Assembly: GCA_001972305.1 (NCBI GenBank)
Contig: BDDD01000419.1
Location: 62,001 to 126,000 of the forward strand
Length of the DNA: 64,000 bases
Source: Cephalotus follicularis
Taxonomy: Eukaryota; Streptophyta; Magnoliopsida; Oxalidales; Cephalotaceae
Direction of reading: 5' to 3'
The first letter of the stretch is position 1, and the number at the start of each line of letters is the position of its first letter. Under the pieces are notes generated by a model, which was given only the letters and a program-made list of their open reading frames with translations, ran no database searches and was not told the DNA's origin. Shown here piece after piece: positions 5,769 through 34,973 of this stretch. Both the position numbers and the translations under genes were made by a program.

Positions 5769-7772
5769 TGTAATTTTAAAATTTAAACGCAGCAGAAGAA
5801 ACCCCCTTAACGCTTAGGCTATGCTAATTCCAAATTAGTGAAAGTGAACATTCACTTTGTCCAAATCCAACTCATTAACATCCAAGGATCACCACACCGA
5901 GTCATAATCAAATATCACATAAACATGTATATGTGATAGACAAAACCGAAAACCACAAAGGGATCAAGTAAGAGCTTATATCAAAATGGAGGCTTCTTCA
6001 CTTTGCCAATACAAGCTTGAGAAGCTCCCTTGAATGACTCCAAGTCTCCACCATTTGTGATAAAAATCCCTTAACTTGTCTCACCAAAATTTCGCCCCCT
6101 TCCTTTGATGCAAACCCTAGGTTTTCTAATACTCTAGTTCAAGCTATAATTATACCATGCAAGCTCTCTCAAGACAAAGAATGTCTCAAAGGAAAGCTAA
6201 TTGTATAAGTGTTTGAATCCTTAACCTATTTGCTAAGAAGGGTAAATCAATACTGACAAGAGATTATCAATCTTAATCCACCCCTAAGTAGCTACTAGGT
6301 CTTGGTGATGAAAAATCAAGAAGGGGAGAGAAGCTCCAAGCTTGTGAGAATGGAGTTGGAAGATCAAAACCCTAGGAAAGCTCTTCCTTCTCTTTTCTTT
6401 CTCTAAAATTTCGGCTGGCATGGATAAAATGAGGAAGTCTCACACACTTTCTAAAAGCAATCTCCCCTTATGTATAGTTAAGTGAGAGTATGAGAGATTA
6501 TGACAAGTGTCTCCATTGGATGGTGATTTTATAAGTTTTCCACCACATTCATGAGATACTATTCTCGGGTAGGGACCTTAAAGTCCAACATTTACTAACT
6601 TATATATGATTTTATAAGTTTTTCACCAAGATGTAAATGTTCAATATTTGTGAGATACTATTCTCGGGTAGGGACCCTAAAGTCCTGGTTATTATCGGTA
6701 GTGTTGATAAATTATCGAAATGCTCTCAGGACATTCTAAATAGTCTCATACCTATTTAAATGCTCTCATACTAATATCCAATATTATCCATGTGAAAAAT
6801 TAATCTAATTAATTTCCTCATTGATTATCACATACTTCCGTAACACCTGACTTTTTCCTGTCGACAGTTGCCGTGTACTGTAATTCCCGACTAAGGTCTA
6901 GGGTATGGATGCGTGTTAACCCTAGTTTTACCTTAGTAACTAAAATGTCTGATCATTACTATGACTTACATTAGACCTTCCTGAAAAATCCAATTTTCAG
7001 TCTACCTTAACCTTGGCCAATGATTTGAACAGTCCACAGTACAATCAGACCAATTAGAGCCGATCACCTTCGCTCAGGTGTGACGATTCCATTTTGCGTA
7101 TTCGCTTATATTCATACGTATTCTATCAAGCCCAAAGACCACCTGATTGTTAGTCCCGCGAAAGAACTGAGTGGGGTGGAGATCAAAGCAAGACAGTCTC
7201 TATAAAACATAGAGCAATTGCTCAGGTCTAAGGATCAGACGAGTTCTCTACGAACTCGCTAAGTGTCCAACACCTATACACAACCGCCACATGTAGGAAT
7301 CACTATTGACACAAGAATAACGACTATCCAAATAGCGTTTCCTAATTGGGTCCTATTCAGTGTACACGCTTTAAGCGTGCACCCAGTACTTGCCTTAGTG
7401 TTCATCACAGGTGGCAATGAGATTCTCCATCCTTTCACCAACGGGAGCAAGCACGGTACGCGCAAGTCTATCCGGTTCACTAATGCCCAGTAAGTAAGCC
7501 TACAACTTGGAACTATTTCGATATAAGGAATAAGGCAGTCAATCTCACTGTCCCATGCTTGGCTTCCAACCTCATATGTCTGGGCATCACATACATAAGT
7601 AGCTAATACGAAATTAATCTACTTTAATTATAAGATAAAACATATGTGATATCATACCATAAACAATTTGAATAAAAACACATATCATATAAATAGAATA
7701 AGATTGTTTTATACATAGATAAGTCCCAATACAACAGCCATCTAATGCCTTGTCGGATCACCCTATCCAACA
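5769..7772 (-). mobile_element. non-coding LTR-like fossil (probable solo LTR or LTR fragment)
   Basis: On the minus strand this 2-kb unit begins TGTTGGATAGGGTGATCC and ends in AAATTTTAAAATTACA, so it has TG...CA ends like an LTR. It is moderately GC-rich against AT-rich flanks, and its text is typical of plant high-copy non-coding repeats. No protein domain was recognised; two overlapping frames near 7263-7493 on opposite strands look accidental. No matching target-site duplication was found, so the bounds are tentative. It is a fossil with no coding capacity, and its age cannot be judged from one LTR. Confidence 0.35.
6553..6685. repeat. internal direct repeat of the LTR-like unit
   Basis: A 34-base motif starting GAGATACTATTCTCGGGTAG occurs at 6553-6586 and again at 6652-6685 with one difference, 99 bases apart. 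Each copy is preceded by a similar TTTTATAAGTTTT stretch, which indicates a local tandem duplication of about 100 bases. Confidence 0.8.
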
Positions 7773-15083: not shown

Positions 15084-17240
15084 ATCTAATATTGGAGTTA
15101 GGGTACGTTAGCTTAGTTATAGGTTTTTTGATAATATTGCATGGTTTCATATCACTAGTTGTTATTATTTATTATCACTATCATGATGATGTTAATCATC
15201 TAGAGACTAGAGAGAGGGTATAAAAAGGCATAAGAATTGTGTGTGTCACTTCTTAAAAATTGAAACTTTGGATTATATGATTTTTGGCTTTTTCTTTGGC
15301 TTTTTGTTTTTTGTCATATTGACAGATATGTCCTTCTATAACCACTGTTACCATACACCAACCCTTGTGCTTTGGCTACGAGAGCTGCATGGAATTCTCA
15401 TACATTTACATAAAAACAGACTGCATTCTTTTCTTCTTCTTTTTTTTTTTTTCTATTTAAATTAGTAATATGTTTAGTCCTTCATTTTTTGTTACAGACA
15501 CAATTCATTCTTTTAATTTAGTAACGATACAAAATAATTTAAAGAAATTATTTTTTTAATTTATCAATTTTAATTTTAAATAATAATTAATTCACTAATT
15601 TAAAATTAGATATATGATAGTAAAACTACGACAATTATTTGTTCTTCCACAACCTTTTGCACATAAAGTTATTGTTCAAAAAGTTGAAATTAGTGTAACA
15701 AAAGAAAATCGTAGCGTTACTGCTAATCTTTAAAATATTTCACAACTCTATTAGTATATTTTCTCTTTTATTTTTCGGTGGAATATAATTAAATCGAAAA
15801 ACATCAATAAAAATTAAATTATATCATTAAATTGATGGGATTTTATGGTTACAAATATTGTCATAAAATAGAAATTTTCTTTTTCTGTCAAATATGACAT
15901 AGAGGTTGTGGAACTATTCATATATGAAATATCTTGATATATCAAAATGTAGTTACTTAGAATTAGGATTTTTTTTTATAATAATATGAAATTAATTGAT
16001 CAAAGTGTATTTAAATTGTATTCTAAGATCAAAAGTGAAAGTATTAATTTATAATTTACTCTTTAATATTGTTTTCCGTCGGTTTCTCTTCTCTTTAACA
16101 CTTGATACTGATTTTATCAAGTTAAACAATGATATCATTTAACAGTTGTATCCGCTATTGAATACACAAGAAAGTTGCAAGCACAGAATTAGATGAAGCA
16201 AGTGTCCCGTTTGTTAAAGGAAACCAAAATTCAGTAACAATAAAAGAAGAGGCACCGAAAGTGTTTTTGCCTCACTCTTTCAAACCTCGTCTCTCACAGA
16301 ATTAAGCTTTCTTTAAAAGTAACATAACCGGATCCTTTTTTCTTTTCTTTTGCTTTGATTTAAAAGTGCTATAAATAGGCCAACATGTAAAATTAGTTAT
16401 TAACATTCATACCATGGGTTGACACTGAAATCAAAAGTGAAAACCTAAATCCTTCCCTCAAACCTCAAAGAGATATCTAATTCTCTTTCCAAGTGATTTG
16501 AAAAATATGATGATTTCTATCAAAGGGGTACCTAAGGTCCTGGAAAAATGGAGATTACTAAAAGAAAAGCCAATCCCGTGTGAAAGAGAATCGGTTAAAC
16601 TTTGCTTTATGCAATTTTGATTGCCCTCTCAAAGGCATCGATCAAAAAATTAATTAAACGAAGAGATCTCTTACATTTGAGTTTAAACAACTCGTTTTAC
16701 AAATTCAATTAGTTATTATGATAATCTATATATGTAAAATGTATATAATATATGTTAATTCTAAATAATTCTAATTATTTCATATTCTCATGATAATTTT
16801 AATCATTAAATCAATTTTGGAGAGAGAAAGTACCAAATGTGTGACAAAAGGCACAATATAGGTTTCTAAAAGAGTTGCGGAAAGAAAGCCGAACTTGGTG
16901 TGTGCGAAAAATCTTTCCCAAATGTGATCGAATGTCACTTTGATAGCCAACAACTTCTTTCTTATAGTAGTGTGTAGTTAGCAGTATGTACGGTAGTGTG
17001 GATTGTTTATGTGCAGTACAACGGTCGTATGTTATCTTATAGCCTGATGCGGCCTTTTAAATGCAGTAGATAGAAAAAACAATCAGATAAGGAGTAGGTG
17101 AGCGAGTGAGTCCACAATCTATTCTAATTTGTAAGATATGGGGATCTACAACGAATTTTACACATAGGCACAACATATCGCTATGATGCGGGGTGGTGGA
17201 GGGTTGAGAGGGGTGTTGTGAAGGGAGAGAGATATCAACA
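15084..17240. other. AT-rich intergenic DNA downstream of EFM
   Basis: The first few hundred bases should hold the EFM 3' UTR and poly(A) site. The rest is AT-rich with no recognised gene. The moderately GC-rich stretch 16850-17240 resembles no family I know. Confidence 0.5.
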
Positions 17241-17490
17241 ATTGAATTTGCTTCTTTAATAGGCTCTGCGATTCTACTTTGATCGTTATGGAACAGTACA
17301 AAGATCTAGTCAAGACAAGTAAATTTTAACACTCGACGCAGTAACAATGACAACGACTACTTTTTTAGTGAGATTAAATGAACAAATACAAGTATGGACA
17401 ATTACAGGAGGTATGTTTAATACCAAATCTTATAGTACTGTTCGAGGAGTCGATAAGTTAATCCCAATGGATGTTTATTTGTGGGGTCGT
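17241..17490 (+). pseudogene. ndhK: nuclear copy of a plastid ndhK fragment (NUPT)
   Basis: Read on the plus strand, the region follows the middle of plastid NdhK, a subunit of the thylakoid NADH dehydrogenase-like complex. IEFASLIGS is followed by a degraded FDFDRYG block, a PRSS-like block, the VTM segment, VRL.EQ, then [18 protein letters not shown] and IP.DVYL. The frame changes and stops occur, and several conserved residues are replaced. The Cys-containing segments before and after the fragment are absent, so it cannot encode a working subunit. The base composition of the flanks is nuclear, so this is a short insertion of plastid DNA rather than plastid sequence. Confidence 0.8.
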
Positions 17491-18685
17491 AATTATTTAA
17501 TGATTAAAATTATTATGATAAGATGAAATAATAAGATATCTAATTTACTTGAAAATTAACAAATATAATTAACATATATAAATTAATGTAACAACAAGTT
17601 GAATTTGTAAAACGAATTTATTTAAACTATTGTTTTGAAAACTGGACCAAACCGGCCAACTCAATCAGCTAGGACTAGACCCGAACCTTTTTTTTTTGAT
17701 CTAATGAACCCTAAAACCTGCCAATGTGGCCTGAGTTAACCGACTGTCCAACCAATCAGACCAATTTGACCTGCGTTTGGACCGTCCATGTCTAAGCCTC
17801 CTCAAGATTAATTCACCAAGAAATGCTTCGAGGTGAACTTCACTTGAACCAGAGACAAGCTTGGAGGAAAAATACATGTCAACACCATTGAATCTCTTGC
17901 TCACATTGGTTAAATCATTGAACTAATAATATATTTATTATATAAAAACCGTAACGACCAAATATAATTTTCCATCCCATATAATCGGATCCGGCCTCCT
18001 CAACGGATTAAAGTTCGATACAAATTTTAATATTGGTTTAAACTCAAATTTAAAGGGAAAAAAATTATCCCTTGATTAAAAATAACTATCCCGATGGATT
18101 AATAATAGCTATTTTTTTCTTTTTAAAAAATAATAATATCAGAATTACTAATAATTTTATTAACTTTTTTATATTACATATTCATTCATTAAAAATAATA
18201 AAACCAAACTATATGTTTTACTCTCCAAATAAAATTCATGTATAAAAATTTTAATACGAAAAAATTAATAAAAGTGTTAATAAACCTATGGTTATTGTTT
18301 GAAAAAACTGATTCAAATTGAATTCGGACTTTAATTTTCAAAACTTAGTCCTAAGTACGTGCTAAAATTATTAGAGAATTTCACAAATTTTACAGTTGAC
18401 ATGCATAATCCATGATCAAATTGATTTATAACAACTGGGAAATCGTCCATTTAATTAAGATTCTAACTACAAGGGAGGATGGATGTAATTTTACAGTACA
18501 AAAGAGCCTTGATGAGAGATTAACCTGAATAAACTACAGTTTGAGTAACCTATTTTCCTCCTCTTATAACAATATAAACACACCTATCTACATAAATTGC
18601 ATGCTGAGCCAAAACGAAAAGTTAAGTTGATACTGTAAAATGCTCTACAGACTATCGGACTCTGCACATCATCCATTACCATTTG
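17491..18685. other. intergenic DNA and 3' UTR side of the RRM gene
   Basis: The stretch at 17636-17790 (ACTGGACCAAACCGGCC and similar) has the feel of a degraded high-copy plant repeat, but I could not define ends. The part nearest 18685 should be the 3' UTR of the minus-strand RRM gene. No other gene is seen. Confidence 0.4.
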
Positions 18686-21600
18686 TCAGCACTCCATCCG
18701 TACACCAGCACCAGCACCAATGTCACCGTCTACCATTGCTGTATCAACAAGAGACTACAAAAAACGGATGTAGAAGTTAGTATTTTATTCCATCATGCTT
18801 CTCTCGTTCACAATTAGAGGCAAACTATCTTCATTTTTCCTTATCGTTTGAGTGATATGGGAGGGTTCAGAAGGGAAAGACAATGCTTTAGCTCCAAGGA
18901 AACTTTGAGCAAGGCCAAGCAGACTACCACCATCAGACTTCACAGATTACCTAAAGGCCACAATGGCATTACCACCAAATTTCCTAGTACATTGCAGTAA
19001 ATGCTTACCAAAAGGCCACAATGGTATTACCACCAAATTTCCTAGTACATTGCAGTAAATGCTGTAATATGTCCAAGCATAAAAAGTAGGCTACCAAATT
19101 CTTTTTAATTGCAATTGCCTCTTACTGATGCATAAAATCAATAACAAGAAAATGCAAAAAGTATCTCACAGTGGCAACAGAGCTGAAACTGCCATGCGAT
19201 CAATAAGGAAAGAAACATCAATGGGATTTTCAGCAAATTAACACAATTGCATTCTTCATCAACAGCACACATTTCATTATGGATCAACCAACTACACAAC
19301 ATGTCAACAATGTTTTTCTGTGCGCTTCAAATACAATGTTTTTACAGATATGAAAGAAGTTAACCTGAAGAGAATTATTATCTTTTACCAAAAAATGTAG
19401 TGAGAGAGGCTCCCCCTTCTCTCTAGCCTGCAACCTTTCTCCTTTTCCTTTTTTAAATCTCCCGCCTGTAACCCTTTGCGTTTTTCCCCTTCGCCTCTTT
19501 CTCTTTCTTTTCCCCTTCTCTTTTTTCTCTTTTCCCGCTCGGTGGTTCCATGTCGTCGAGCCCCTCCTCTCCAGTCCCGGCCCCGGTTGCCTCTGGTGAC
19601 ACGGTGGTAGAGGAAACCCAGGAGTTAGTTGGTGTGGTCCAGAGTGAGAATGCCATCTTGCGTCTACAAGGTGAGCTTAGTGACTGGTCTAGTTCTATGG
19701 AATTAAAGGTGTGCCAAGCTGTGGATCAAGCCATGAGTGGTAACAAGGTCATGTCTGACCTAAGAGGTAAAGAAGGGGCTCGGTCTCACCCGAGCGGCCA
19801 AGATATTGAAGATATTGTTAGCCTAGCTATTAAGAAGGCTATGAATGGTGCTTTGGGTGAGGTCACGATCCCTGGGGTAGTAGCCCAACCAGGCCCTGTT
19901 GTACAAGGGGCCACGGCAAGCACAGGAGTGTCAATTGAGAATAAGATTAGCAAGGACAAAGTAGGAGTCAGCGGTAGCTCAGGTGCCCCAGTAGGGGAAG
20001 GGAAGAAGGTGTGGTCCCAGTTGTTCCAGAACACCAGAAGAGAATCCCAAAAGTTATCCTACATTGCCCCGGTGGAGTGCAATGGGGAGATTGTGGCGGA
20101 GATGCCGGAGGAGATCCTAGCAGAGGGAGCAAAGGAGTGGGAACATGCTTTGGTGGGGTTTTTTGTAGGGAAGAAGATACCCTTCCGATCACTCCAGGTC
20201 GTCTTGAATAAAAAGTGAAGCTCAGCCGGTAAGTTCTCTATCCATACTGCCGAAAACGGAATTTTTGTTTTCAAATATGAATCTGCTATTGTCAGGGACT
20301 GGATTATGGAGAATGGCCCCTGGGATGTATGGGGAGTCCATTTGGCATTGAGGTTGTGGGAGAGGGACCTGCCGCCTATCAACAGCGGTTTTACCAAAAT
20401 CCCGGTGTGGGTTAAACTCATGAATATCCCTATGGAGTATTGGACTTCTCAAGGACTTAGTCGGCTTGCAAGTGTCCTGGGGTCCCCGCTCCATATGGAT
20501 CCTGCCACGGAGGTCAAACAAATGATCAGTTTTGCAAGAGTTTGTGTAGAAATGAAGGCAGATAGACAGTTCCCGGATGTGATCAAGGTCAGGAAGATGA
20601 ATGGGGCTTTAGGGGAGGTCAAGTAGAGTATAGCTGGAAGCCTCCTGTGTGTGAGCGATGCAAGGTGTTTGACCACAGTACGAGAGCATGCCCGTTGAAG
20701 CCACATAGCAGCCTGGTGGAGCCGGCGGCTAAAGGCGCTACTGATCCTGATGGCTGGGTGGCGGTTAAAGGAAAGGGAAAAGAGAAGATGATCCAAGAAG
20801 GCTTACCAAAGGTTCCCCAATTAAAACCAGCGCTGAAGAACCAGGGCAACTACATTCCCCCCAGGAATGTTGAAGTCCCTAAAACACCTGATAAGGAAAT
20901 GACGGCCAGTGCCGAGCCTTCGGATTTGGCAACGCCAGAGGTAAGCCAGTTTGCCCTGAAGATTAAGAACATAGAAGGCCAATTACAAATGGACCCTATT
21001 ATCGGTGATCTCAAGAATAAGAGGACAGAAGTGCCCAAACAAGGTGAGAGTGGTAGCAGTAGAAAGAAGAAGAAGAAAAGCCCCCCTACGGGCAAAAGTA
21101 GGAACCTCCACTAGTTATGGATAGTGTAGCATGCTGGAACAAAAGGGGTTTGAATGACCCTATTAAACACAGGGAAGTGAAATCCCTGATTTTGAAGTTT
21201 AATATTGCCTGTATAGGCCTTTTGGAGACAAGAGTTAGAGCTGGGAATAAGGATAGGGTTGCTAGGAGCCTTTTTAGAGGCTGGAAAACGGTCACAAACC
21301 ATGACCAGGCCCTCTTAGGAAGGATTTGGGTCATGTGGAACCCGAGTGTTGTTCAGTTCATGGTACTAGAAAACTCGCACCAAGCTATACACGGCAAAAT
21401 GATTTTTCAAGGGGCTGAGATATTCGTTTCCTTTGTGTATGGTAGTTGCGATTATATAGAGAGGAGGGAGCTGTGGGGCAACCTCATCAATCATTCTAGT
21501 AGGTGTGCAGGGAAGCCTTGGGTCACTCTTGGGGACTTTAATGTATCCAGATGGTCAACCGAGCATAGTGGTGGTAGGCATGTGCTTTCAAAAGCAATGG

Positions 21601-24600
21601 AGGAGTTTGGTGAGTGCATAAGAGCAAAATGGAAGACTTGAGGCAGACAGGGCTTTTCTTTTCTTGGAGTAACAAAAGAGCAGGGCAAGGGGCAATAGCA
21701 AAGAAAATTGATAGAGTCATGGACAATTGGGGCTGGTTTAAGGAGTGTGGCAACCTGCAAGCACACTTCCCCCCGCCTGGCATTTCGGACCACTCTCCGA
21801 GCATCCTTCAGCTAAAGTGGCCTAGCTTTTCAGGGGTGCGGCCGTTTAAGTACCTAAATGTGTGGGCTTCCCACCCGTCATTCTTAGGCTTGGTAAAGGA
21901 GGTTTGGTCCCAACCTGTTGGAGGATCCCCCCTGAAGGCAGTTGGTAGGAAGCTCAAAATGCTTAAACCGGTGCTCAAGGAGCTCCATAGGAAGTATTTC
22001 AAGGACCTGTCTACGGCTTGCACATCATTAAAACAGGAAATTGAAACACAACAGGCTATCTTGGATGAGGATCCTACAAACGAGGGGGCAAGAAGCAGGG
22101 AAAGGCAGCTCCTGGGGGAGTACTACAAAGCTGGTGAGGTTGAGGAGGCCTTTCTCAAACAGAAAGCTAGACTCAATTGGCTGAAACTGGGGGATTCCAA
22201 CTCGGCGTTCTTCCACAGGACAGTTAAACTGAGACAAGCCAGGAATCATATTGATAAAATCATGAAGGAGGATGGACGTTGGACTAACTCACAGATTGAG
22301 GTGGAGGAGGAAAGTGTTAGGTTCTTTAGCAACCTGTTCCACTCTCCGGCTAGACGGGAAGGAATCGTCCTGAAGAGGTTTGGGGATGGGGTGAATGAAG
22401 ACCAAAAGGAGGCTTTGGCAAAGGAGGTCACCGTTCAGGAGATCGTCGAAACCTTGTGGTCCCAGAACCTGGACAAGGCTCCTGGACCAGATGGTTACAA
22501 CGGGCGGTTCTTCAAGGATGCTTGGAGCGTTATAGGAGAGGAGGTTGTCCAAGCTATTGGGTCCTTCTTTGCTTCTGAGAGCATACCCAGAGGCATCAAT
22601 GCCACCATTTTATGCCTTATCCCGAAATCTGCAAGCCCTTCATCGATGAAGGATTTTAGGCCGATAGCTTGTTGTAATTTCTTGTACAAAACTATCTCAA
22701 AAGTGCTAGCTAGAAGGATCAAGTCCGTTCTGGGGAGTATCATTGATCCGGTCCAATCAGCTTTCATCCCGGGAAGGAATATCAGGGATAACATTCTGGT
22801 GGCGCATGAAATTTTAAAGGGCTACCCGGCCAGAGTGGGTGTACCCAGGTGTGCAGCGAAAATTGATATCCATAAAGCCTATGATACTGTTAGATGTGAC
22901 TTTATTCTGCAGCTTCTCAACCTCTTGAACTTCCACCCCTTGTTCATCCGGTGGGTCAGAGCCTGCATCTCCACTGCTTCTTTTTCAGTGGCTATTAATG
23001 GTTGTTTACACGGTTTCTTCAAGAGCTCTAGGGGCCTAAGGCAGGGAGATCCCATCTCTCCTTATTTGTTTGTGATCGGTATGAATTACCTATCTGGTAT
23101 GCTCAAGGAAGCTTCTTCCAAGAGGGAGTTTAAGTTCCACCCGAGATGCAAAACCATGAGTCTCCACCACCTTTTATTTGCAGATGATCTCTTGTTGTTC
23201 TCCAAGGCGGATATCCCCACCCTTTCTTTCTTCAAGGATGCCTTGTCTGAATTTGCTGCGGTTTCGGGGCTGTTTCCGAACCTGGACAAAAGCCATAGTT
23301 TTTTTGGGAATGTAGGTAGGGAAGCTAGGGAAAGGATCACTACACTGTTGAATATCTCAGAAGGCTCTCTTTCGGTTAGATATCTCGGTATCCCTCTGCA
23401 GGCTTCAAGACCATCTCATATGGATTGCAAAGTTCTCATTGACAAACTGATGAGAAGAACCTCCTCATAGGTGAGTAATGCCCTGTCGTTTGGGGGCAGG
23501 CTCCAGCTTTTAGCTTCGGTTTTGTTTATTATCCAGGTCTTTGGGTGCACAGCTTTTATTCTCCCTGTGTCTGTAACAAAGGAATGCGACAGGATAATTA
23601 GAAACTTCCTTTGGCATTGGGTAGGTAATACAAAGAAGAGTGGTAAGGTAGCATGGAGGAAGGTGTGCAGACCAAAGGATGAAGGAGGTCTGGGTATTAA
23701 GGATTGTAGGTTTTGGAACAAGGCAGCTATTATGAAATTTGGGTGGGATATATGTAGGAAGGACTCCGTTTGGACAAACTGGTGCCATGCCGTGTTCTTG
23801 AAGGAGACAAACTTTTGGGCCGCGAAGATCAAAAACAACTGCTCTTGGAGCTGGAGGAACATTTTAAAGTCCAGGAATCTTTTGGAGCAATATGTGCTGT
23901 ACGAGGTGGCAGATGGGAACGATTTCTCTTTGTGGTTTGATCGGTGGTTCTTTGGGGAATCTATAGCCGATTTATATGGTCTTATGGTAATCCAAGACTC
24001 GGGCATACCAAGCAATGCAAAGGTGAGCACTGCCATTTCTGCAGGGCAGTGGGACTGGCCGACATCCTCTTGGGATCTTATTGACATCAGCTATGTTTCT
24101 AGCCGTATCCCTCTTGCGATAGGCTCTGACAAGATCCATTGGTTGAAGAAAGGAGGGAGCTTTACGATAAACGAAGCATGGAGGACCATCATTCCTTAGA
24201 GTACGAAAGTTGAGTGGAGTAATGTCGTTTGGTTTCCGAGGTGTATACCTAAACACAGCTTCTGTGTTTGGCTGGCGTTCAGTAATGGACATAGAACTCT
24301 AGACATTCTGTTTAAGTGGGGCGTGGTTACAAACAACAAGTGTGGCTTTGGATGTGGACAAGTGGAGTCTTTGGATCACTTGTTTTTCGAATGCCCCTAC
24401 ACGGCTAGAATCTGGAACCATTTCCTGTCTTTATGTGGGTTTAGGAGGTCATGCTCTGGCTAGGGGGTTGAATCGGCTTGGTGTATACAGAGGTTGAAGG
24501 GTAACTCCTTTAAGATATGGATTACAAAGCTCACTTTAGCTGCTGTTGTGTACCACTGCTGGATTGAACGCAACAATCGGCTTTTCAACAACTCCTTTCG

Positions 24601-27600
24601 TAACTTTGAAAATCTGGTCCTCGCTATTGGAGCGGATATTGATGGGAAGTGCAGGGGTCTCTCCCATGTGGTAGATAATCAGACAAACAGGGATCTTTTC
24701 TCTGTTTGGAATCTTCCCCTGTCCTTGCTTTCCTTGAATGGTTATTTGCTGCTGGGCTGTCAGTACGCCTGAGTCATGGTGTGTGAGTTAGGGTTCTGTT
24801 GGGATGTGTTACATGCGTGCAGTGGTGCTTTTATAGGCCACTGAGCAAGAAGGGTGGCTTCGCTGCGTTCTGGTGAGGTATGTTGCCTCGTATCTTCAGC
24901 GCCGGTTGGGAGGTAGAGGGCAGTGGTCTCTCGCAAAGTATTTGTTCGCTCTTTTGGCCGGGTATGGATTCTTTTGTCTTCCTTTTGGGCTGGACAAATG
25001 TTGGCATGAGCAGTGCTTTCTTGCCTTTGGTTGGTTGTTGGCCACATGCCCAGGTTTCTTATCATCTGATGGATTTATGGCTGTGATGGTTTTCTACTAG
25101 CGCCTTGTAGGCCTTGGGTTCTTTCAATGCCTTGTCCAGCTGCTGTATCTAGTTTTAGTGCATGGTGCTTTTAGTGTGAATGTTCCACTTTGTTTTTGGG
25201 TCTACCTGTTCTTTTTGTATACAGGTGGGATGTTGTAGGTTGTATTTTTTATACTTTTATACTATCCAAAATGTTCAAAAAAAAAAAAAGAAGTTAACCT
25301 GAAGTTCCTGTTCGCAGCTCTTAAGTCTCTCAGTAAAGTCTTTCACTTGCAGAAAACACTTACACAGCTGCAGATTATTCACATAAAAATGCTGTTAAAT
25401 CAAGCCAACGTTTCCAACTTTCCTAAATAGTAGTTGGAAACAATAGTGATTACCTTTGCCAACTGCGTCTGCCGAAGCGAAGAGAGCTTCTTTGCACTGA
25501 TCACTGCATCCTCCAATTTCTGCACATACCATCATACACTCAATGAACTAAGAAATGCTTGAAGTATAAAAACTAAAACAGCTCGGATATCAGATATTAG
25601 CAGACCTCAAATATGAATACGACTGCCAATCAATTCAAACAGGCCAATACCTTAGATTTTCTCTGTAGATCTGAGACAAGTTGCAGTTTCTCTTTCAACC
25701 TCTCTTCAGCTTGAGCAATCTGTGAAAGGCATTGAATTTTAGTTTCTTCTACTTTGAACACTATGGCGATAGAACATCAAAGGAGAATAAGTAAATGGCC
25801 TTTGACAATAAAATGTCAGAATTAACTTTGACAGGTTAGTTAAACCCATTCAGGAGGTGATTTCTTGGTTGCATAAGTAAAGTGTGTAGATACTAGATAC
25901 TAAATTTCGTTATGCCAATTATTTGCAGCAGATGCATGCAATCATGCTATAAGATCAGTTTTTTCGCATCATCTGGTCAAATGCATTGCAATATATATAT
26001 AAATGGAAAGTGCCTAAACTCACCTCCTTTTTAAGTTCTTCACGCTTTTGAAGTGATCTCTCAACTTGTTCTTTGACCTGATAATGAGAACATGAATAAA
26101 AGTAAAACAGCCCCAAAATCCACATAACAAGGCACATACGCACTGTAAGGTTGACAATGCTAAGCTTACTTGATCATTATTATCATCCCTCGAATCTGAT
26201 GAATGTCCTCTACTGTGTCTGTCATTAATAATGGAACTGGTACAAAAGCACATAGCAAGCAAAGCTAAACCAATGAGTAAAACAGAGAAGATAAGACAGA
26301 TGCAACTCAAAAAAACACCAAAAAACTAAAAAAAAAATCACAATGGTATAGATATAGAATGCATCTTGACATACTAAATAACAGAGATTGTTCAAGATAT
26401 TACCCTTTACCTATCCAGAGGTGATACATACTCTATCGAAGTGGATACCTACAATAACTCCATCATCAATTCTTTCCCAAGATTAGTATATGAAGACTAA
26501 TCAACGCATTCCACATCAACCAAAACAACATATTGCATTAGTTGAGCCCATACAACTATCACGTGTTGAATAGAAACAGATGGGCACGCTTTCAAAAGTC
26601 TAGCATTTATACTGCTCTTCCATCCTAGACTAAGTTGAGCCCATACAACTCCCCAAACAGTTTTCTCCTATTACCAAATGCATTAGTTGTGCCTCATAAG
26701 TCCAGGAGATCAATCAAATAACTGAGGTTAACTCTGTTTTCTTTCAATTATAGCTTTAAACTATAAAGAGTGGTAGAAGGGTGCATCTAGTTGTTTCTAC
26801 CATACTCTTATCATATGAAGATTCTTTCTGGTATACAGAAATACAGACTCTCTATGAGCAAAATGTAAAAATTCGACTTCCTCCGGTTCCACCAAGCGTG
26901 TGGCTGATCATCTCCTGATCGTCTCACTTCAACCTGAACAACCACAACTAGAGCTATTCCGTGAACAGTCCCTTTCTCAGCCAAACAAAGTCTCTTACAA
27001 GGTATCAAACTGGATGAAAGAACAAAAGCTATTCTCTGCTTGACCCAATAATTAAAACCATGACAGTGCCAAAGGTAGTAATGTCTCTAAGTAAGGCTCA
27101 GACAGCTGTACATAGAAACTTTACAAGCGAAGAAGATCTAAATTGCCCATGGAGAGAAAATACCTACAGACATCGTGAAAAATACTAACATATTCCCAGT
27201 ACCTGATCCATCTCACAGATATTTAGGACAAACACATGTACAAGGTACGGAGAGACAGTATTGAGTTAACATTGTTTGGTTACTAATTACTCCATTCTCT
27301 CCTCAAGGATTACACAGTTCCGTAATTAACAGTTTACTAAGCTACCCCAGCCTCAGATCAGCAGGAATAGTTTAGGAATAGAAATAACTTTATAGTTTCC
27401 TATTTCTGCTTTTCCTTTGAGAGGCAGGGGGGAAAGGAACATCATTTTAAGCCCCCTGACTTGGAAGTGCATGCACATAGGATGAATATGCTCTGCTATG
27501 AAAACGCAAAAGAATGTCATAGCTTGGCCAATCAAATATTTCGGTTCTTATTGACTGAGAAACAAAAGATCAGAGTAAATGAGAGGAATAATCTTACCCA

Positions 27601-28583
27601 TTCAGTCTCCTTGACAACTGATCTTTGTCCTTGTCAACACTTCGGCGATGACCACTAGTTCCGGTTCCTTCCATCTCCCTATCTCGACCAGGGTCCAAGC
27701 GTTCATCCCTTTCCCAAATCCCATCACTATCTCTGCTGTATTCTTTCCCATGATCCTCCAGATTCCTGGATTGGTCTTCATCTCTATCGAAGTTATGATC
27801 CCTTCCTTGATCATGATCATGTGCATGCTCAAACTCTCGTTCCTGATCTTCATAATGCTCGCGAGACCTACTATGCTCTCTAGACCTATCACTATATCGA
27901 TCTCGATCATAGTCCCTCACCCGACTCCCAGGCCTATCCCAATCCACGCCTCTCTTTGCATTGCGCCGAAGACGATCTCGACCAAAATTAGATCTCCCAC
28001 CCCTGGTTGTTGCTGCATTCACTCTTACGGCTCTTCCATCAACATTCTAACAAAAATTCCACAATGTCATATGTTTAAAGCTTAAACCCACGATACAAAA
28101 CCATTATAACTCCATAAATTTTTTAAAAAGTAAAAAAAAGTGAGAGATAAAATAGAGAATAGGATGATGCATACCCTGCCATTCATGTCATTGATAGCAT
28201 CAATTGCTGAGCGAGGATTGGTAAAAGTAACGAAACCATAACATTTTCCCCTGTCATTTATAATCTGCCCGGGCAAACGTGATAAATGCATTTTTATAAT
28301 AAAGTTAGCTATGTACAAAGAAATACAACCCCATACTAACATATACATTTAATCGCTGGTTTCGATTATCCTCTGTTTGATAAGCGTAATAATCTCAACC
28401 AAGAAAGAAAAAACTTTAAAACTAACGAAACCCAATTATGAAAAATTAACACCTGTCAATCTTGAGCTTAGCATGGTAAATACTCAAAATAGAAGAGGAG
28501 GAAATGTAGTAAAAACCATAGAAAACGTAAACCCTAGATGGATAAAGTCTCAAAATAAAAAAACGAAGTGAAAACGCGATGCA

Positions 28584-28638
<55 letters not shown>

Positions 28639-28749
28639 CTTAACGGCAACGATGTGGCCGTAGAAATGGAAGGCGCGGCGAAGGGTGTCTTCAGTGGCGT
28701 TGAAAGGGAGTCCTCCTACATAGACAGAGTTGTCGTCGTCAACCGTCAT
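18686..28749 (-). CDS. RRM protein with Arg/Asp-rich middle and C-terminal coiled coil
   Basis: Nine exons on the minus strand: 28749-28639, 28264-28175, 28046-27598, 26236-26170, 26077-26024, 25719-25651, 25519-25454, 25367-25299 and 18754-18686. All borders are GT-AG and the lengths sum in frame to 347 residues. Residues about 7-80 form one RRM, with RNP2 VYVGGL (9-14) and RNP1 KCYGFVTF (44-51). Residues about 85-215 are very rich in Arg, Asp, Glu and His (RDYDRDRYSDRSREHSRSRE), as in splicing-related RD/RS proteins. Residues about 237-325 form a heptad-like coiled coil (VKEQVERSLQKREELKKE onward). A nuclear role in pre-mRNA or RNA processing is inferred; the gene has no name known to me, though eudicot homologues share this layout. 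The last intron (25298-18755) holds a full LINE. The last codons VRMEC-stop look shifted: homologues end near DGVLTNGN, and one missing G near 18699 would explain it, trimming roughly eight residues. Confidence 0.88.
18953..19063. repeat. 58-bp tandem duplication in the last intron of the RRM gene
   Basis: The unit starting AAAGGCCACAATGG occurs at 18953-19010 and again at 19011-19063, with one substitution (GGCATT versus GGTATT) over the compared length. This is a recent local duplication on the acceptor side of the intron, outside the LINE. Confidence 0.9.
19356..19370. repeat. left target-site duplication of the LINE
   Basis: GAAGTTAACCTGAAG is identical to 25290-25304 on the other side of the LINE. 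With adjoining A residues the match can be stretched to about 18 bases, which the poly(A) tail makes ambiguous. On the minus strand it reads CTTCAG|GTTAAC, a second copy of the exon 8/intron 8 junction of the host gene. Confidence 0.95.
19550..21114 (+). pseudogene. LINE ORF1: DUF4283-like and CCHC zinc-knuckle RNA-binding protein, broken
   Basis: ORF1 of plant L1 elements encodes the nucleic-acid-binding partner of the RT protein. An N-terminal Ser/Pro/acidic region (from MSSSPSSP) is followed by a DUF4283-like core (SIHTAENGIFVFKYE, PWDVWGVHLALRLWERDLPP, IPVWVKLMNIPMEYW). Then comes a zinc knuckle CERCKVFDHSTRAC (C-x2-C-x4-H-x4-C) at about 20650-20690 and a basic tail ending near 21110. One in-frame TGA lies at 20216-20218 and one frameshift near 20615-20622, just before the knuckle. 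The start ATG at 19550 is the first good one after the leader. Confidence 0.85.
21117..24772 (+). pseudogene. LINE ORF2: endonuclease-reverse transcriptase, broken
   Basis: The frame starts 3 bases after the ORF1 stop. The apurinic-like endonuclease shows WNKRGLN, LLETR, GDFN and SDHSP (21117-21810). The RT follows: AFIPGRNIRDNILVAHEIL, KIDIHKAYD, LRQGDPISPYLFVI, and FADDLLLF as the catalytic box (about 22700-23210). A zf-RVT domain with CGFGCGQVESLDHLFFECP follows near 24340-24400. Breaks: one frameshift near 21610-21620, between endonuclease motifs, and three in-frame stops (23468, 24197 and about 24461). No separate RNase H was recognised. This domain set is typical of plant L1 LINEs. Confidence 0.9.
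25290..25304. repeat. right target-site duplication of the LINE, spanning a host splice donor
   Basis: The second copy of GAAGTTAACCTGAAG. On the minus strand its first six bases (CTTCAG) are the end of exon 8 of the RRM gene and the rest (GTTAACTTC) is the start of intron 8. The LINE poly(T), as read in the gene's direction, begins 9 bases after the splice donor. Confidence 0.95.
28586..28637. repeat. compound GT/GA microsatellite at the donor of RRM-gene intron 1
   Basis: About 30 bases of GT repeat followed by about 22 bases of GA repeat. In the gene's direction it begins right after AAG at the intron 1 donor (GTCTCTCT). It is probably length-variable. Confidence 0.95.
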
Positions 28750-33470: not shown

Positions 33471-34973
33471 CTACCTACAGTCCTCCGTATCGTACCCATG
33501 ATCGCGGTGATATCGACAGTATTTGCTATAATCCCTCTTGTCTGCTGGGGTTCTCAACGGAGGTGACCACTGGATTGAGACTTTTTCCTTCTCCACTGCA
33601 AGGATTCTGGTCCGTGTCTCGAGGGGAGGGGTGAAGCTTTTGTAATTGGGGATTAGCGATCCCCTTTTTGGTGAATTCTCCCTCTTGGAGAGTTTGTGCC
33701 TTAGGTTATCTTCTGTCAGCTCTGGCCTCCCTTTCCTCTTCTCATGGTCAGACCAGAAGATCTTCTGCTTTCTAGCCTCTAGAGCCTCCTCTGCATTTAT
33801 ATACTTTTCAGCTCTTCTAAGGAGGTCTGTCATGTCAAGGGCATGCTTATTCATTAAGGAGAAGGTGAAAAATGAGTTGTCTGTCAACCCGCTGTTCAGG
33901 GTTTCCAGAGCAAAGGAAGGTTCTAAGTCTTTTACCATCAAGGACTCCTTGTTGAACCGGGTCAGGTAATCTCTAAGGGATTCATTTTTCCCTTGCACTA
34001 CGTTGATCAAATGATTAGTGCTCTTTCTCTGGGTGGTGCTGTTAAGGAATTTTGTGACAAACATCTCGCTGAATTGCTCGAAGTTTGCCACTGACTTGAG
34101 GGGCAACGTGGCGTACCACGTCTGAGCTGCACATGTGAAAGTCGCCGGAAGTCCTCGGTAGAGGATTGCGTCTGAATCTTGGTGCACTAACATGATCTGG
34201 GGGTATTACCTCACATGCTGTATGGGATCAGAGGACCCGTCATAATCTCTAAATATTGGGAACCTAAACATTCTCAGTAGAGGCTCCCTCAGTATCTCTG
34301 GAACGAAGGGGGTGCAGTTTAAGTTCCACACCTCTGACAAGTATCCCCTCGTCTGCTCGGCTCCTCTGAGTCTTTTCTCCATATATTCAAACCTTCTGTT
34401 GATGATCTACTCGATATCTTTTTGATCCCTAGACTCGCTGGAGACTTGGGATTGTCCTCCGGTTGGTCTGACCGAGTAGTCTAACCTACTCCTTGGCCTT
34501 GATTCATCTCTGCGAGACGCATAGGAATGTGCATGGGGCTCCTCTTCGACTATGTAGTAATCTAAGTGGTCTTCATCCTTTGGATCTTGCTCTGGAAGGT
34601 CCTGCGCGGGGTCATAATTATAATCTCTTGCACTTGAAGACTCTGCTCTCAGAGATATATCAATCTCTGATCGCCTTGGAGGGTGCCTTGCCCCCCTTTG
34701 CGGGTTTCTCCTGGGCTCTGCTCTTATTGATGTATCAATCCCTGACAGTCTTGGAAGGCGCATGGCCCCCCTTTACGGGTTTCGTCCATCCTCTTGAGAC
34801 TGTGGTTGTTCTGGGGCTGCTTGACTTGGTCCAACCTGATTCTGGCTAGCCAAATTGTTTGCCAACAGTGTAGTGAGCCTCCCTATCTCCTGAAGGAACT
34901 GGTTAAATTGCTTACCGGTGAGAGGAGCTTGACCAGGAGCGGCCGCAGGGTTGGTGGTTCTCTCCGGAGGCAT
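33471..34973 (-). pseudogene. gag region of the Ty3/gypsy element
   Basis: Minus-strand frames from MPPERTTNPAAAPGQAPLTG through a Pro/Arg/Asp-rich linker (34763-34407) to a retrotransposon gag core (34193-33471). The core has TCAAQTWYATLPLKSVANFE and LINVVQGKNESLRDYLTRFN, ending near a CRYHRDHGYDTEDC knuckle-like motif. It makes the structural capsid-like protein in this family. The region is broken and belongs to a fossil element. Confidence 0.85.

Follow-up and report, generated by a model that had tools for sequence, protein, structure and literature searches.

How is an intron spliced after a retrotransposon has landed on its edge and copied the exon/intron border? This question is raised by a 64-kb stretch of the Cephalotus follicularis genome (64,000 nucleotides, hereafter the window), in which an L1-type LINE lies antisense within intron 8 of a minus-strand gene for an RRM/coiled-coil protein. 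As the LINE landed just inside the intron and the border was copied, intron 8 has grown about 11-fold and has the same splice signal twice. The event is of a known kind and well preserved, and its unusual detail is that the duplication spans a splice junction. We consider it likely that the insertion left exon 8-9 splicing in place, with an exon-side donor favored by the uridine tract of the LINE tail and a second donor copy that is mostly idle.

The Host Gene and Its Predicted Exons

Splice consensus, an open frame and an RRM domain (PF00076, E = 2.5e-20) outlined a host gene of nine predicted exons with a coding span of 18686-28749 on the minus strand. Exons 1-3 were placed at 28749-28639, 28264-28175 and 28046-27598, exons 4-6 at 26236-26170, 26077-26024 and 25719-25651, and exons 7-9 at 25519-25454, 25367-25299 and 18754-18686, all on the same strand. 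The nine exons join as one open frame of 347 codons, and the claim of the first-pass annotation that the exon chain stays in frame across a 6.5-kb intron was thus upheld. The encoded protein has an Arg/Asp-rich middle after the RRM and a coiled-coil-like tail, the latter matching the GAS profile at 17.4 bits, below the cut-off of 32.3. Among the best 60 of 189 PDB matches, the RRM was covered and one match extended to residue 162.

Donors and acceptors were scored with plant matrices, the one for acceptors being T-rich, and a second, mammal-like matrix was also used for acceptors. The last base of exon 8 is 25299, where the border reads CAG|GTTAACTTC. For the acceptor of exon 9 (18754), the plant matrix gave a score of 6.43, and three of the 111 AGs in 17000-19300 (18524, 18738 and 18070) outscored it, which counts against our main explanation; exon 9, predicted from frame and splice consensus, is therefore plausible but unproven. 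A plant homologue that may have a similar C-terminus was not counted as support for this exon.

The own genome was then searched for further copies of the locus. With 256 bp of exon 7-8 DNA as the query the window alone matched, and neither an empty allele nor a homeologue was found; 713 bp of intron 8/exon 9 DNA likewise matched the window alone. A protein search of the same genome gave 25 matches, eight on the contig of the window and 17 elsewhere at 23-49% identity, and a second copy of the whole host protein was not among them. When tblastn was run on the loci of seven of these 17 (about 3.2 kb each), the RRM was matched in the absence of any match to the C-terminus, and the non-RRM parts of the protein gave short, insignificant matches at the same seven loci. 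None of these seven thus served as a paralogue or processed copy from which the exon 8-9 junction could be read.

A CT then CA microsatellite occupies 28578-28638, directly 3′ of the intron 1 donor, and a minus-strand ORF of 240 aa is present at 33471-34193, which by eye may resemble a retrotransposon gag protein.

A Target Duplication Spans the Exon 8/Intron 8 Border

Within the 64-kb window, two exact copies of the 15-mer GAAGTTAACCTGAAG were found and no more, one at 19356-19370 and the other at 25290-25304, with no occurrence on the opposite strand. The two copies sit at both ends of the 5,919-bp LINE. An AAA that merges with the LINE tail could belong either to the repeat or to the tail; if it is counted, the pair becomes an 18/18 match (19353-19370 vs. 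25287-25304), so that the length of the duplication is 15-18 bp. Read on the minus strand, both copies give CTTCAG|GTTAACTTC. In the exon-side copy (25290-25304), as placed by the exact repeat and the exon chain, CTTCAG is the end of exon 8 and GTTAACTTC the start of intron 8. The second copy of the junction (19356-19370) adjoins the 5′ end of the LINE and, judged by site scores, is both donor-like and, through its AG|GT, acceptor-like.

As a control, each 5′ flank was deliberately paired with the 3′ flank of a different copy, across this LINE and 10 relatives, giving 110 pairings. The longest common word among them was 8 nt, compared with 15 nt for the window copy, which argues that the repeat is a target duplication and not a product of chance. 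When the flanks were paired correctly, three of the 10 relatives exceeded 8 nt (L047 with 14 nt, L057 with 12 and L050 with 10) and seven did not. The exact repeat and the mispairing control thus bear out the earlier proposal that an L1 target duplication covers the end of exon 8 and the start of intron 8, and the second complete donor (CTTCAG|GTTAAC) expected about 5.9 kb further on was indeed found as an identical copy, 5,934 nt downstream of the exon-side donor.

These features are best explained by target-primed reverse transcription of an L1-type retrotransposon, which inserted in antisense orientation relative to the host gene. The sense strand of the gene would have been nicked for priming at 9-12 nt into intron 8, and the other nick would have been made 6 nt into exon 8; with one nick on either side of the border, the 15-18-bp duplication would have copied the whole junction. 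Between the exon-side donor and the poly(T), 9 nt of native intron remain, or up to 12 if the ambiguous AAA is included. Intron 8 now measures 6,544 nt vs. 610 nt without the insert, and the part downstream of the second junction copy (18755-19364, minus strand) corresponds to this 610-nt pre-insertion intron.

In the native part of intron 8, a tandem pair of 58-nt units with 97% identity was seen at 18947-19062. A site at 18515-18529 was also considered as a third copy of the repeat. It resembles the repeat at 13 of 15 positions in another register, reads TTATTCAG|GTTAATC on the minus strand and is the best-scoring acceptor among the 111 AGs in 17000-19300. It gave no match to the 15-mer within two mismatches, and the resemblance, which is probably due to chance, was taken as such.

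The Insert Is an L1-Type LINE

The insert measures 5,919 bp from repeat to repeat (19371-25289, plus strand) and ends in a tail of 13 A's (25277-25289). It carries PF03372 (Exo_endo_phos; E = 1.2e-5, 25.6 bits against a cut-off of 24.5) and PF00078 (RVT_1; E = 2e-35), so that an apurinic-type endonuclease and a reverse transcriptase, as expected of a plant L1-type element, both lie within it. ORF1 gave PF14111 (DUF4283; E = 1.8e-21) and contains a candidate motif, CERCKVFDHSTRAC, spotted by eye, which we take to be a zinc knuckle; DUF4283 with a zinc knuckle is again the plant L1 arrangement. A poly(A) tail together with a target duplication of variable length, here A13 and 15-18 bp, also agrees with this class. 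The endonuclease, reverse transcriptase and DUF4283 domains and the A13 tail confirm the L1-type identity given in the first-pass annotation.

The first nick does not follow the TTTT/AA consensus. It reads TTAACTTC/TTTCATAT or ACTTCTTT/CATATCTG, which counts against our main explanation, and the consensus nick was found at one of the six relatives that have a candidate repeat. The TTTT/AA consensus of L1 nicks is a preference. Since plant L1-like cases deviating from this nick site have also been reported (PMC4838847), the off-consensus nick does not exclude L1 membership.

Searches of the own genome with the 3′ end of the LINE gave at least 40 matches including the window itself, the best other copy showing 81% identity over 770 nt, and those with the 5′ end gave at least 49, again including the window, with 85% for the best other copy. 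Fifteen relatives were retrieved, all of which matched the LINE, and seven of them were aligned with it at 85-88% identity. Within the retrieved stretches, four relatives (L045, L046, L047 and L057) reach the region of the 5′ end. The first 19 nt of the LINE (19371-19389) have no match in these four, and in L045, L047 and L057 the candidate repeat is followed by a different leading stretch; such leading stretches may be extra sequence acquired at the 5′ end. L045 in addition lacks about 2.8 kb of interior at about 7184-7187, where positions 1533 and 4299 of the window copy are joined.

Decay of the LINE and Age of the Insertion

The coding frames of the LINE contain six lesions, namely four in-frame stops and two frameshifts. 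None of them was common to any aligned relative having sequence at the position concerned, the comparison covering four of the seven relatives for the ORF1 stop, five of seven for the ORF1 frameshift and all seven for the four ORF2 lesions. In ORF2, at positions where at least five relatives agree, the window copy had private differences at 25 of 823, 34 of 846 and 70 of 690 sites for codon positions 1, 2 and 3, respectively. We attribute the excess at position 3 to a time when the LINE lineage was still active; on this reading, codon positions 1 and 2 limit the change after insertion to about 3-4%. Judging from these private lesions and private differences, the insertion is not very young, and with general plant substitution rates, which are perhaps not those of this species, the estimate would mean an age of millions of years. 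Dating by the identity of tail and repeats was dropped, since by our own arithmetic a perfect 15-bp pair would still have a chance of about one-third at 3-4% change. The open frame of the host gene is weak evidence of continued function, because an unconstrained gene of this size would have a chance of about 0.3 of showing zero lesions at the lesion density of the LINE (own arithmetic).

The Exon-Side Donor and Its Uridine Tract

The exon-side donor is unchanged over the whole consensus from -3 to +6. Since every consensus position is retained, exon 8 is most likely still spliced to exon 9 across the 6.5-kb intron via this donor. Its score of 7.17 with the plant matrix ranks fourth among the eight donors of the gene, so it is not especially weak, and it is seventh of the 268 GTs in exon 8 and intron 8. 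The six GTs that score slightly above it count against our main explanation; one of these six, at 25205, lies only 93 nt downstream, within the LINE.

In the host pre-mRNA, the LINE tail forms a tract of 13 U's (25277-25289, minus strand) whose first U is position +10 relative to the exon-side donor; as many as three of these U's may belong to the repeat. From +7 to +36, 20 of 30 nucleotides are U at the exon-side donor, including the 13-U run, vs. 15 of 30 in the native sequence after the second copy, and a content of at least 20 U over this interval is shared by 0.4% of the minus-strand GTs in the window. The poly(T) of the LINE thus does follow closely upon the donor, as the first reading had it.

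That reading had also held that U-rich sequence just after a donor aids plant splicing, a general claim backed by two published accounts. In Arabidopsis, RBP45d is reported to bind U-rich sequence downstream of the donor and, with PRP39a, to steer donor choice (PMC9813592), and in human Alu exons, in work on TIA proteins, a pyrimidine tract 3′ of an upstream donor is reported to let it beat a stronger downstream donor (PMC2766253). The layout found here is the same as in the RBP45d and Alu cases, which makes it reasonable to suggest that the LINE tail may help recognition of the exon-side donor. The likeness to the Alu exons lies in a pair of potentially competing donors, the upstream of which is followed by a pyrimidine tract (PMC2766253); here, in contrast, the donors are identical, lie 5.9 kb apart and belong to a plant. 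The U13 tract starts at +10, where RBP45/UBP1/TIA-type proteins have been reported to favor U1 binding, and should thereby favor the exon-side donor over its identical copy downstream.

The Second Junction Copy and Rival Outcomes

On the minus strand, the second copy is preceded by AATAATTCTCTTCAG and presents AG|GT at 19365/19364 (CTTCAG|GTTAAC), the juxtaposed acceptor AG and donor GT of a recursive splice site. One rival explanation, which builds on an acceptor reading that the first-pass annotation had not raised, is that it works as such a site with a zero-length exon: splicing of the exon-side donor to CTTCAG (19365) would take out precisely the LINE plus a single copy of the repeat, after which the restored GTTAAC donor would be spliced to exon 9, removing the old 610-nt intron. 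A strong pyrimidine tract would be expected before the AG of a recursive site. With the T-rich plant matrix, the second copy was third of the 411 AGs in intron 8 and exceeded seven of the eight acceptors of the host gene, and in Arabidopsis the removal of introns around a single-nucleotide exon has been reported, with a recursive model put forward by the authors (PMC4674806). With the mammal-like matrix, in contrast, it was only 57th of the 411. When CTTCAG|G was held fixed and the preceding bases were drawn at random, the plant matrix scored as well in 16% (window composition) or 8% (LINE composition) of draws, and the mammal-like one did so in 58% or 66%, respectively. Moreover, two of the 22 AG|GT sites in intron 8, both within the LINE (20887 and 23281), have higher combined scores, and the fly sites are described as needing a cryptic exon downstream (PMC8605326). 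The fixed-junction null does not support the strong form of the recursive idea, and together with the better AG|GT sites it suggests that the acceptor reading was built in by the duplication and was not specially strengthened by the LINE. We regard this outcome as very improbable. If it were true, a target duplication spanning CAG|GT would make a zero-length recursive splice site by construction, and a retrotransposon that hits the end of an exon would thereby supply what is needed to remove it from the RNA in steps. The duplicated donor might otherwise end a new exon of antisense LINE sequence. Four AGs within 400 nt upstream of it score at least as high as the weakest acceptor of the gene, and with one of these AGs the exon would be open and a multiple of three in length, a predicted, frame-preserving exon of 63 nt (19427-19365, minus strand) that would add 21 residues. 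A purine-rich stretch lies upstream of the 19427 acceptor, and one such exon among four candidates is unsurprising; this outcome is the most doubtful one that we considered. In our preferred explanation, by contrast with both of these rivals, the second donor copy is probably mostly idle.

The gene may alternatively be a partial loss-of-function allele, in which most transcripts would keep the first part of intron 8 and terminate within the LINE or close to it, with a protein that stops after ELQVNFFFFF and lacks the last 22 residues. The in-frame stop required for this lies seven codons past the donor, and a U-rich and then A-rich stretch directly 3′ of the donor would suit early polyadenylation. 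There is, however, no AATAAA or ATTAAA on the strand of the gene over the 1.7 kb that follow the donor, although plant polyadenylation signals are looser than these two hexamers. Intronic transposable elements that lose repressive marks are reported to yield premature polyadenylation (PMC10241880), and a 5.7-kb LINE in an intron of Arabidopsis FLM (Kil-0) reportedly reduced the full-length mRNA (PMC4619661), which counts against our main explanation. On the other side, the consensus of the donor is intact throughout, and the insertion has not been lost over time. We therefore hold such an allele to be unlikely, and prefer retained exon 8-9 splicing, in which some transcripts would perhaps be lost to retention or early polyadenylation.

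Comparison With Known Systems

In grapevine, LINEs are reported to recur in large introns, and four characterized introns differ among varieties (PMC3058033). These introns and FLM in Kil-0 (PMC4619661), as described there, resemble the present case in that a LINE of kilobase size lies in an intron of a gene that is possibly still spliced. Unlike in those plant introns, the donor here lies within the target duplication, and +10 is where the tail begins; FLM was tested for the effect, whereas at this locus the effect on splicing is a prediction. A preprint on L1 insertions at human MET exon 14 (PMC12934576) likewise describes target-primed insertion with duplications beside exon borders; the reported result there is exon skipping in tumors, whereas in this plant gene a complete donor stays beside the exon.

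Introners also obtain splice sites from target duplications (PMC9860276), but they are described as creating new introns, whereas this LINE lies in an existing intron and contains neither the donor nor the acceptor of that intron. Intron gain by the introner route was rejected for this reason; the ends of the element do not define the intron, as a 610-nt native segment stands between the LINE side and the predicted exon 9. Ratchet points (PMC8605326) and the Arabidopsis single-nucleotide exon (PMC4674806), as reported, share with this locus a juxtaposed AG|GT in a long intron, but here the AG|GT comes from a duplicated exon end and is a candidate by its letters. One narrow, exact literature search joining target-site duplication, recursive splicing and retrotransposon returned no paper.

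The locus offers a natural paired test, in which two donors identical over 18 nt lie within one intron and differ in context, one having the exon and 13 U's around it and the other LINE sequence and native intron. It could show to what extent the use of a donor in plants depends on context and not on the letters of the donor. A general rule that deserves a survey would be that, wherever a duplication spans a CAG|GT exon end, the site left behind is both donor and partial acceptor.
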